A stretch of DNA of 64,000 nt from Tepidimonas ignava (GTDB lineage Bacteria > Pseudomonadota > Gammaproteobacteria > Burkholderiales > Burkholderiaceae_C): the NCBI RefSeq assembly GCF_004342625.1, contig NZ_SMAH01000002.1, positions 62,001-126,000 on the forward strand, written 5' to 3'. Shown piece by piece: positions 9,423 to 11,790 of this stretch. How positions within the stretch are numbered: the first letter of the stretch is position 1; each line of letters starts with the position of its first letter. Below the pieces are notes generated by a model, which searched no databases, was not told the origin of the DNA, and was given only the letters and a program-made list of their open reading frames with translations. A program made the translations under genes and the position numbers.

Positions 9423-10505
9423 ATGACCACCGACACCCCCTCCCCCACCGGCACCCCCGCCGCCCACGCGCTGGATGTGGCCGCGCTGCAGGCATGGCTG
9501 CAGCAGCACCTGCCGGGCTTCACCGGCCCGTTGCGCGTCGACAAATTCCCCGGCGGGCAATCCAACCCCACCTACCGCCTGACCACGCCGCAGCGCACCT
9601 ACGTGATGCGCGCCAAGCCCGGCCCGGTGGCCAAGCTGCTGCCTTCGGCGCACGCCATCGAGCGCGAATTCCGCGTCATGCAGGCGCTGGCGGCCACCGC
9701 CGTGCCGGTGCCACGCATGCTGCTGCTGTGCGAGGACGAAGCGGTCATCGGTCGCGCCTTTTACGTGATGGAGCACGTTGAGGGCCGGGTGCTGTGGGAC
9801 CAGTCGCTGCCCGGGATGGACCCCGAGCAGCGGCGCGCGCACTACCTGGCAATGAACCGCGTGCTGGCCGCGCTGCACACCGTGGACGTGCACGCCGTGG
9901 GCCTGGACGACTACGGCAAACCGGGCAACTACTTCGAGCGCCAGATCGCGCGCTGGAGCAAGCAGTACGTCGCCTCCATCACCGACCCGATCCCCGAGAT
10001 GGACGCGTTGATGGCGTGGCTGCCCGCCCACCTGCCGGATCTGGCGCGCGACGAACGCCTGGTCAGCATCGTGCACGGCGACTACCGGCTCGACAACCTG
10101 ATGTTCCACCCCACCGAGCCCCGCATCGTCGCCGTGCTGGACTGGGAGCTGTCGACGCTGGGCCACCCGTTGGCGGACTTCAGCTACCACTGCATGTCGT
10201 GGCACATCGAGCCGGGGGCGTTTCGCGGCATCGCCGGGCTGGACCTGGCGGCGCTGGGCATCCCGTCCGAAGACGAGTACATCGAACGCTATTGCGACGC
10301 CACCGGCTTGGCCACGCCGGCGCAACTGCGCCAAGCCTGGCCGTTTTTGATGGCCTACAACGCCTTTCGGCTGGCCGCCATCCTGCAAGGCATTGCCAAA
10401 CGCGTCGAGCTGGGCACCGCCTCCAGCGCCCAGGCGCGCGCCAGCGCCGCCGGTGCGCGCCCCATGGCGCAGCTGGCGTGGCGTTTTGCCCAACAAGCCA
10501 CCTGA
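9423..10505 (+). CDS. Aminoglycoside-phosphotransferase-fold kinase (ACAD10/11-type)
   Basis: A 360-residue kinase of the APH/choline-kinase fold. The catalytic loop HGDYRLDN is at residues 218-225, and the metal-binding Asp ([10 protein letters not shown]) is at 240. The N-terminal lobe has [10 protein letters not shown], the nucleotide-loop equivalent. In bacteria this subfamily is often adjacent to an acyl-CoA dehydrogenase; in animals the two are fused in ACAD10/ACAD11. LvaA of Pseudomonas putida and the ACAD10/11 kinase domains phosphorylate the 4-hydroxyl of 4-hydroxyacyl-CoAs, so that role is inferred here. The acyl-CoA dehydrogenase starts 25 bases downstream. Aminoglycoside resistance is not expected. 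Confidence 0.82.
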
Positions 10506-10530
10506 ACACCCCAACCGCCGGAGAACCGCC

Positions 10531-11790
10531 ATGGACTTTGCCTACAGCCCCCGCGTGCAAGCCCTGCGCGAACGCCTGATGGCGTTCATGGACGAGCACA
10601 TCTACCCCAACGAGGAACGCTTCGAGGCCGAGGTCGAGGCCAACCGCGCCGCCGGCAACGCCTGGGTGCCTACGCGCTTGATCGAAGAGCTCAAACCCAA
10701 GGCGCGCGCGGCGGGGCTGTGGAACCTGTTTTTGCCCAACTCGCCCAGGGCGCCGCAGGGCCTGAGCAACCTGGAGTACGCGCCGCTGTGCGAAATCATG
10801 GGGCGCGTGCCGTGGGCCGCCGAGGTGTTCAACTGCTCCGCCCCCGACACCGGCAACATGGAGACGCTGGAGCGCTACGCCAGCGAGGCGATCAAGGATC
10901 GCTGGCTCGAGCCGCTGCTGCGTGGCGAGATCCGCTCGGCGTTTTTGATGACCGAACCGGAGGTCGCCTCGTCCGACGCCACCAACATCCAGTGTCGCAT
11001 CGAGCGCGACGGCGACCATTACGTCATCAACGGGCGCAAGTGGTGGTCGTCTGGCGCCGGCGACCCGCGCTGTGCGGTGTACATCGTGATGGGCAAGACC
11101 AACCCCGACGCGCCGCGTCACGCCCAGCAGTCGATGATCGTGGTGCCGGCCGACACCCCCGGCATCCGCGTGGTGCGCGCGCTGTCGGTGTTCGGCTACG
11201 ACGACGCCCCGCACGGCCACATGGAAGTGGAGCTGACCAACGTGCGCGTGCCGGTGGACCATATCCTGCTGGGCGAGGGCCGTGGCTTCGAGATCGCGCA
11301 GGGACGCCTGGGCCCCGGGCGCATCCACCACTGCATGCGATCCATCGGCGCGGCCGAGCGCGCCTTGGAGCTGATGTGCCAGCGCCTCAACAGCCGCGTG
11401 GCGTTTGGCAAGCCCATCGCCGCGCAAACCATCTGGCACGAGCGTATCGCCGAGGCGCGCTGCATGATCGAGCAGGCCCGGCTGCTGGTGCTCAAAGCCG
11501 CCTACATGATGGACACCGTCGGCAACAAAGCGGCCAAGGCCGAAATCGCGATGATCAAGGTCGTGGCCCCCAACGTGGCGTGCAAGGTCATCGATTGGGC
11601 CATCCAGGCCTGGGGAGGCGCGGGTGTGTCGCAGGTCACGCCGTTGGCGCGCAGCTACGCCCATCAGCGCACGCTGCGCTTGGCCGACGGCCCCGACGAG
11701 GTGCACCGCAACGCCATCGCCAAGCTGGAACTGGCCAAACACCTGGTCCGCGCGCCCGAGGTGGAGATGCCGATCACGCGCGGCTGTTGA
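10531..11790 (+). CDS. Acyl-CoA dehydrogenase family protein, ACAD11-like
   Basis: A flavin-dependent acyl-CoA dehydrogenase fold protein of 419 residues with a GGAG ribosome-binding site before the ATG. FAD/substrate motifs [15 protein letters not shown] and WWSSGAGDP are present. In the C-terminal motif that holds the catalytic base of medium-chain enzymes (YEGT), this protein reads ADGPDEVHR, with Asp386 at the position of the usual Glu. The same replacement is known in ACAD10/11-type proteins. With the upstream kinase it would form the pair that converts 4-hydroxyacyl-CoA through a 4-phospho intermediate to a 2-enoyl or 3-hydroxyacyl-CoA. Assignment to the subfamily is strong; the reaction is inferred from LvaAC and ACAD11. 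Confidence 0.85.

Follow-up and report, generated by a model that had tools for sequence, protein, structure and literature searches.

The window analysed here, a 64,000-nucleotide stretch of the Tepidimonas ignava genome (G000:C2:62001-126000; the genome has 2.7 Mb, 32 contigs, and a completeness of 99.97%), carries a compact group of five genes read in the same (+) direction, separated by successive gaps of 4, 29, 37 and 25 bases and flanked on the opposite strand by genes of other functions, one with a sub-threshold match to FimV_N and the other for a PilB/GspE-like ATPase (Table 1). The last two genes encode a kinase and an acyl-coenzyme A (acyl-CoA) dehydrogenase which, judged from sequence and with a probability of about 0.87, represent a separate-protein version of the two-domain chain of vertebrate ACAD10 and ACAD11, phosphorylating and then dephosphorylating 4-hydroxyacyl-CoA. 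The original prediction had placed here an APH-fold kinase followed by a dehydrogenase with an aspartate as catalytic residue, with a 3-hydroxyacyl-CoA dehydrogenase and an enoyl-CoA hydratase upstream and a Crp/Fnr gene between these and the kinase; open reading frames, residues, strand, and Pfam and NCBIfam matches all agree with this layout. The kinase motif HGDYRLDN covers residues 218-225 and Asp240 lies within LDWE, while the dehydrogenase starts at an ATG (10531) 25 bases past the kinase stop and places Asp386 in the motif ADGPDEVHR (residues 385-393). In Pfam, the kinase matches APH with 188.6 bits, and the dehydrogenase matches Acyl-CoA_dh_1, _M, and _N above their cut-offs.

Table 1. 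Genes and other features of the five-gene group, in window coordinates.
Feature	Position	Strand	Remarks
3-hydroxyacyl-CoA dehydrogenase, type with two C-terminal domains	6287..7822	+	Pfam 3HCDH_N and 3HCDH (2 stretches); NCBIfam PRK08268 subfamily, 728 bits (cut-off 508)
Enoyl-CoA hydratase family protein, 259 aa	7827..8606	+	Pfam ECH_1; NCBIfam 'oxepin-CoA hydrolase, alternative type', 386 bits (cut-off 300)
Operator-like palindrome A, GGTCGCACAGGAGACA	8616..8631	+	9/9 core bases; overlaps likely ribosome-binding site of regulator gene
Operator-like palindrome B, AGTCGCTCACACGACA	8646..8661	+	30 bp from A; 8 or 9 of 9 core bases in 40/41 sequences at the same register
Crp/Fnr-family regulator, 249 aa from ATG 8636	8636..9385	+	Pfam cNMP_binding and HTH_Crp_2
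Strong predicted RNA hairpin	9392..9421	+	Within the regulator–kinase gap (9386-9422), right before the kinase ATG; -25.9 kcal/mol, z -1.94
Predicted 4-hydroxyacyl-CoA kinase, ACAD10/11 kinase-domain type, 360 aa	9423..10505	+	Asp220, Asn225, Asp240 and Arg173 (= ACAD11 Arg176) kept
Predicted 4-phosphoacyl-CoA dephosphorylating acyl-CoA dehydrogenase, ACAD10/11 type, 419 aa	10531..11790	+	Arg259, Arg264, His267, Arg270, Asp386 = ACAD11 Arg626, Arg631, His634, Arg637, Asp753

The assignment of both proteins to the ACAD10/11 kind is supported by identity, residues, and trees. In the PDB, the kinase is closest to 3dxp (516 bits), followed by mouse ACAD11 (276 bits). For the dehydrogenase, three chains of ACAD11 lead with 481-485 bits and 4hr3 comes after them with 448 bits; the score then drops to only 134 bits for 4u83, so that the family assignment is not due to chance. 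The kinase is 42% identical to mouse ACAD11 and 67% to 3dxp, and the dehydrogenase 57% to mouse and human ACAD11 and 55% to 4hr3. Although 3dxp is named a 'putative acyl-CoA dehydrogenase', the chain matched is the kinase part, which falls in the same tree clade as the window kinase.

The residues that matter in ACAD11 are also present. The cryo-electron microscopy study of ACAD11 names D220 and N225 in the kinase and R626, R631, H634, R637, and D753 in the dehydrogenase, and reports that changes of R626, H634, or R637 ablate the second step (PMC12440821). The window proteins have D220 and N225, and R259, R264, H267, R270, and D386, at these places; the CoA-contacting Arg176 of ACAD11 has its counterpart as well, while Arg86 could not be placed in the numbering used. 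The complete dehydrogenase set is kept in 38/38 family, 11/11 class-level, and 80/80 named sequences, all gathered by similarity. The same genome holds nine other dehydrogenase matches, at most 36% identical to the window dehydrogenase, and in the five that could be extracted (six were tried) only R631 is kept, with R626, H634, R637, and the aspartate in none of them. A proline aligned in the dehydrogenase is number 471 by count and not the Pro463 of human ACAD11 named in PMC11342911, and was not used.

Of the 57 rows of the kinase tree, 28 form one clade (100/99), made up of the window kinase, 3dxp, mouse ACAD11, eight family members, and 17 further rows. Another clade of 21 rows (100/96) contains 9o56 together with kinases from loci including L163-L168 and L183-L191, the kinase of L169 stands outside both large clades, and seven kinases linked to the domain DUF6285 are separate (100/100). 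The dehydrogenase tree (50 rows) splits the Asp-type sequences from the paralogues at 98/98, with the branching within the Asp-type partly open and some paralogue branches very long. Trees, residues, and identity agree in supporting the ACAD10/11 placement given in the original prediction.

Compared with the mammalian proteins, the window pair has both predicted activities, the catalytic aspartate, the phosphate-binding Arg/His/Arg, and the kinase motifs, but is made of two proteins instead of one chain, and no HAD domain was found with Pfam, unlike in ACAD10. The generic Pfam families of the two proteins would also fit an ordinary acyl-CoA dehydrogenase lying beside an unrelated aminoglycoside-type phosphotransferase. 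However, the aspartate at the glutamate position, the phosphate pocket, the tree position, and the adjacency of the two genes in 38 of 40 family loci have largely refuted this explanation already, and it is now hardly credible.

The kinase is widespread among the relatives of T. ignava. At a threshold of E <=0.001, matches are found in 8/11 genomes of the genus, in 264/299 of the family (8 of these weaker than 1e-60), and in 27/185 of the class, two of which lie within the family; the genome of the window itself has a single match. Gene order was followed in 40 loci, namely those of the 7 other carriers in the genus and of 33 family members among the best-scoring matches. The Crp/Fnr gene is found directly 5' of the kinase in all 40, the dehydrogenase after the kinase, with small gaps and on the same strand, in 38, the hydratase in 29, the 3-hydroxyacyl-CoA dehydrogenase in 25, and all five genes in 23. 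A Crp/Fnr regulator of this kind was not found in 20 class-level loci (E 1e-10), and in the 80 named loci, the best 80 dehydrogenase matches listed, it gave one weak and distant match only.

The enzymology of such pairs is already known from ACAD10/11, from LvaA/LvaC of Pseudomonas putida, and from Burkholderia orthologues, and the pair itself is in this sense ordinary. In animals, ACAD10/11 open 4-hydroxy fatty acids to use as fuel. According to PMC11342911, ACAD10 phosphorylates 4-hydroxyacyl-CoA, and its second part gives trans-2-enoyl-CoA and some 3-hydroxyacyl-CoA with no electron acceptor, a step abolished by mutation of the catalytic aspartate. The same source describes kinase and dehydrogenase orthologues of LvaA and LvaC from Burkholderia pseudomallei, separate proteins as in the window, each of which is reported to replace the matching part of ACAD10 in vitro. 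By analogy, the window kinase would transfer a phosphate from ATP onto the 4-hydroxyl of 4-hydroxyacyl-CoA. The dehydrogenase-fold enzyme would then use Asp386 as a base and flavin adenine dinucleotide as a catalytic, but not net, redox partner, while Arg259, His267, and Arg270 would hold the phosphate until its expulsion leaves trans-2-enoyl-CoA. The upstream hydratase and 3-hydroxyacyl-CoA dehydrogenase could carry this product on through beta-oxidation, with a thiolase supplied from elsewhere.

Two parts of the original prediction change in this light. It had the pair convert 4-hydroxyacyl-CoA toward 3-hydroxyacyl-CoA; the main product of such pairs, following PMC11342911, is trans-2-enoyl-CoA, with 3-hydroxyacyl-CoA as a lesser further product. 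It also proposed that the cluster completes a route from 4-hydroxy acids to beta-oxidation, which is plausible at this locus, although the hydratase and the 3-hydroxyacyl-CoA dehydrogenase proved to be inconstant partners. One or both of them are missing at 17 of the 40 loci, which would also suit a pair retuned to another hydroxylated acyl-CoA, for instance from the breakdown of aromatic rings or terpenoids, with the two upstream enzymes serving in the same special pathway. The best NCBIfam model of the hydratase is indeed of the oxepin-CoA hydrolase type, and the 3-hydroxyacyl-CoA dehydrogenase is PaaH-like. Against this, all residues holding the 4-phosphate are kept and the pairing of kinase and dehydrogenase is more constant than the neighbouring genes. 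An identity as phenylacetate (paa) pathway enzymes was rejected, with PaaH at 454 bits (cut-off 669) and PaaG at 178 (cut-off 345). Retuning is therefore considered improbable, and the ACAD10/11-type reading is preferred.

Several observations nevertheless weigh against the latter. The same residues are also found in dehydrogenases only 35-37% identical, next to kinases that are much more remote, so that residues alone do not fix the exact pairing. In 2/40 family loci, the kinase has no adjoining dehydrogenase, and no kinase of this type was found near the Asp-type dehydrogenase in 31 of the 80 named loci. One member of the genus (G001, locus L334) has kept the 3-hydroxyacyl-CoA dehydrogenase, the hydratase, and the regulator, with the PilB-like gene directly next to them, while the kinase and the Asp-type dehydrogenase are missing there; for the dehydrogenase, this absence refers to the locus, the rest of that genome not having been searched for it. 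Finally, both trees were built without LvaA and LvaC, and the relation of the window pair to these proteins rests on the identities given in PMC11342911, 29% between LvaA and ACAD10/11, and 51% and 38% for related kinases of other bacteria. What this analysis shows is the family of the two sequences, their key residues, and a conserved order of genes; that the window proteins themselves perform the ACAD10/11 chemistry, the chain length on which they would do so, and a joint action of the five genes are inferred.

The Asp-type dehydrogenase also occurs in many Pseudomonas loci (L217, L220, L224-L227, L229, L231-L238, L240, L242, L243, and L258), where it is 67-70% identical to the window protein and no kinase was found nearby. 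In the five of these loci with genes listed, it is preceded by a gene that looks LysR-like by sequence. Ten Pseudomonas genomes of this kind each contain a single match at E <=1e-70. A dehydrogenase 79.5% identical to that of the window lies on the megaplasmid of Cupriavidus necator H16.

Among known bacterial systems, the lva operon of P. putida is alike in joining a kinase and an ACAD-family enzyme acting on 4-hydroxyacyl-CoA, according to the literature. Unlike that operon, the window has no small gene between kinase and dehydrogenase, lacks LvaD and LvaE neighbours, and holds a Crp/Fnr gene in the place that the sigma-54-type LvaR takes in P. putida. Neither the LvaD reductase, nor the LvaE CoA ligase, nor LvaR was found beside the kinase, whose neighbours are the five-gene group, the weak FimV_N match, and the PilB/GspE-like ATPase. 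The absence of the small LvaB partner at this locus had been noted from the start and stands, the gaps beside the kinase being 25 bases to the dehydrogenase and 37 to the regulator, and an LvaB may lie elsewhere in the genome. This absence is probably not a gap in the pathway, since the Burkholderia orthologues are reported to perform both steps, no need for an LvaB-type partner is described for ACAD10/11 in the available text of PMC11342911, and a cluster without lvaB is described in Pseudomonas citronellolis (PMC6692424). By analogy with these systems, the window pair probably needs no LvaB.

A small partner may exist in a different lineage. DUF6285 (PF19802), a putative LvaB-like domain, is absent from the genome of the window and was found at 10 places in 7/274 class genomes. 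Of the dehydrogenases beside these places, four (L346-L349) have the full R626/R631/H634/R637/D753 set at the 35-37% identity mentioned above, two (L344 and L345) have a glutamate and lack the residue set, one (L352) has neither, and three places (L350, L351, and L353) gave no match. The distant kinases with a DUF6285 neighbour that go with the dehydrogenases L346-L349 are those of L156, L158, L159, and L162. On sequence grounds, DUF6285 may thus mark a second, distant line of kinase and Asp-type dehydrogenase with a small partner protein, and 4-hydroxyacyl-CoA chemistry may occur with more than one kinase lineage.

Other companions were seen at related loci. In L163, L164, and L167, which belong to other clades, a gene for a histidine phosphatase (PF00300, checked in L163) lies near the kinase, an SDR gene, and the dehydrogenase; by analogy with the HAD domain that restrains ACAD10, it could hydrolyse excess 4-phosphoacyl-CoA. 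A glutathione-S-transferase-like gene, recognized by a look at the sequence only, follows downstream on the same strand in 12/40 family loci (L056, L059, L060, L068, L069, L071-L075, L079, and L083). In PLSDB, a vanG resistance gene is annotated on the plasmid NZ_CP081118.1 (hit H70) at a place where the sequence aligns with ACAD10/11-type dehydrogenases (56% identity), and this label is probably a false resistance call.

The part of the locus most worth following, and less ordinary than the enzyme pair, is the regulator with its tandem palindrome. An open-access literature search on this regulator found nothing relevant, publication elsewhere being possible. It shares its domain families with CRP of Escherichia coli, and Gly71 and Arg82 are kept in the window protein and in 40/40 relatives. 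In CRP, Glu72, Arg82, Ser83, Thr127, and Ser128 contact cyclic AMP (cAMP), and the window protein has Asp, Arg, Thr, Leu, and Phe at these positions, so that only Arg82 is kept. Glu72 is replaced by Asp in 38/40 relatives, Thr127 by Leu or Met, and Ser128 by Phe or Tyr, and these last two changes make cAMP an unlikely ligand, as far as the sequence tells. Five positions of the recognition helix are identical in all 40 relatives and three of them differ from CRP, with both Glu181 and Arg185 replaced by Gln in 40/40. The DNA site proposed for the regulator carries GTC where CRP sites carry GTG.

This site is a conserved palindrome, GTCNCNNNNGNGACA, usually double, at the start of the regulator gene. 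Scored on its nine core bases, a 95-bp region at the regulator start contains a 9/9 match in 35 of 41 sequences and an 8/9 match in the other 6, and palindrome A at its own register reaches at least 8/9 in 33 of the 41 and 9/9 in 31. Random windows from the same loci (n=8017) reach at least 8/9 in 0.8% and 9/9 in 0.01%, a comparison that is partly circular, as the core was defined on the same sequences that were scored, many of them related. No 9/9 match was found upstream of the other four genes (25, 30, 41, and 39 sequences). In some relatives, in-frame stops lie just 5' of palindrome B, which is thus conserved there as DNA and not as protein. The regulator likely starts in many other genera at a methionine after palindrome B; this methionine is missing in the genus of the window, where palindrome A overlaps the likely ribosome-binding site.

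A second feature in the same part of the locus is the hairpin directly before the kinase. All 8 sequences of the genus fold at this gap with a negative z, the seven relatives ranging from -0.97 to -4.30 with mostly different sequence, and the hairpin may tune kinase translation or the processing of the mRNA.

Beyond the operon, the palindrome gives no sign of a wide regulon, as its pattern has 8 matches (7 places) in the genome of the window against 15 in the reversed control, and no excess was evident by eye over the 11 genomes of the genus. Most of 20 matches inspected in the genus lie within predicted genes, one of them cytochrome-like, and a stricter pattern built from the regulator sites gave 6 matches in 14 family genomes, each before the regulator gene. 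A recurring match between genes for an NtrC-type regulator and a molybdopterin oxidoreductase was set aside, because its TTGTCGC repeats have a different spacing and are probably another regulator's. In five genomes of the genus (L115, L310, L314, L315, and L318, with Pfam run on L314 and L315 only), the region around the genes for the NtrC-type response regulator and the oxidoreductase carries TTGTCGC/GCGACAA half-sites.

One match in the genome of the window is intergenic, 100 bp before the polyhydroxybutyrate-depolymerase gene phaZ (PF06850), and for this reason the regions upstream of phaZ were tested. The sample comprised 30 genomes, namely that of the window, two kinase-less members of the genus, and 27 with the kinase locus; phaZ is present in all 30, and 160 bp upstream of it were scored in the 28 with a readable start (G130 and G261 being dropped). 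A 9/9 site was found in 12, an 8/9 site in 5, and at most 7/9 in 11. Within the genus, the site scores 9/9 in 8/9 genomes, at -96 to -101, these genomes being close relatives and the one of the window having prompted the test. Outside the genus, it scores 9/9 in 4/19 genomes of three genera, at -94 to -101. As a control, 463 predicted genes in the 40 loci gave 3 at 9/9 and 6 at 8/9, and two of the three at 9/9 are the regulator's own site seen from a divergent gene.

That phaZ and the regulator gene share this site offers a statistical lead, and it suggests, from sequence, a small regulon joining the breakdown of storage polyesters to the use of 4-hydroxyacyl-CoA. It further hints at storage-polyester monomers as the source of the acid. 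A dedicated Crp/Fnr regulator with a ligand other than cAMP could bind palindromes of the TGTCNCNNNNGNGAC type both at its own operon and upstream of phaZ, thereby linking the breakdown of polyhydroxyalkanoate, or of a 4-hydroxy-acid copolymer, to 4-hydroxyacyl-CoA salvage, and could possibly sense an acyl-CoA or phosphoacyl-CoA intermediate; this proposal is tentative and is given somewhat less than an even chance. The regulator might instead control its own operon only, the palindromes before phaZ being the target of a different Crp-type regulator or part of a hairpin that ends the upstream gene, an explanation held to be nearly an even bet. In the genus of the window, the phaZ site overlaps a hairpin after an aminotransferase gene, and the genus member G006 has the site with no kinase found, the presence of the regulator there being unchecked, while G001 has the regulator and only 7/9 before phaZ. 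The 11 low-scoring genomes and the lack of a genome-wide excess weigh on the same side. On the other hand, the four genomes of three other genera have the site almost equally far from phaZ, within surrounding sequence that is different, and the background of 3/463 consists mostly of the regulator's own site.

Should the link between the regulator and phaZ be true, it would give a lead on the signals and the supply of the pathway, and the acid used could then be tested for directly. Together with its operator, a compact sensor of this kind could also be of help in engineering polyesters with 4-hydroxy-acid units. For the family as a whole, the presence of kinase matches in 264/299 genomes indicates that the ACAD10/11 route may be widespread in bacteria, which would suggest that 4-hydroxy acids are part of the normal carbon flow of bacteria rather than a speciality of levulinate degraders.

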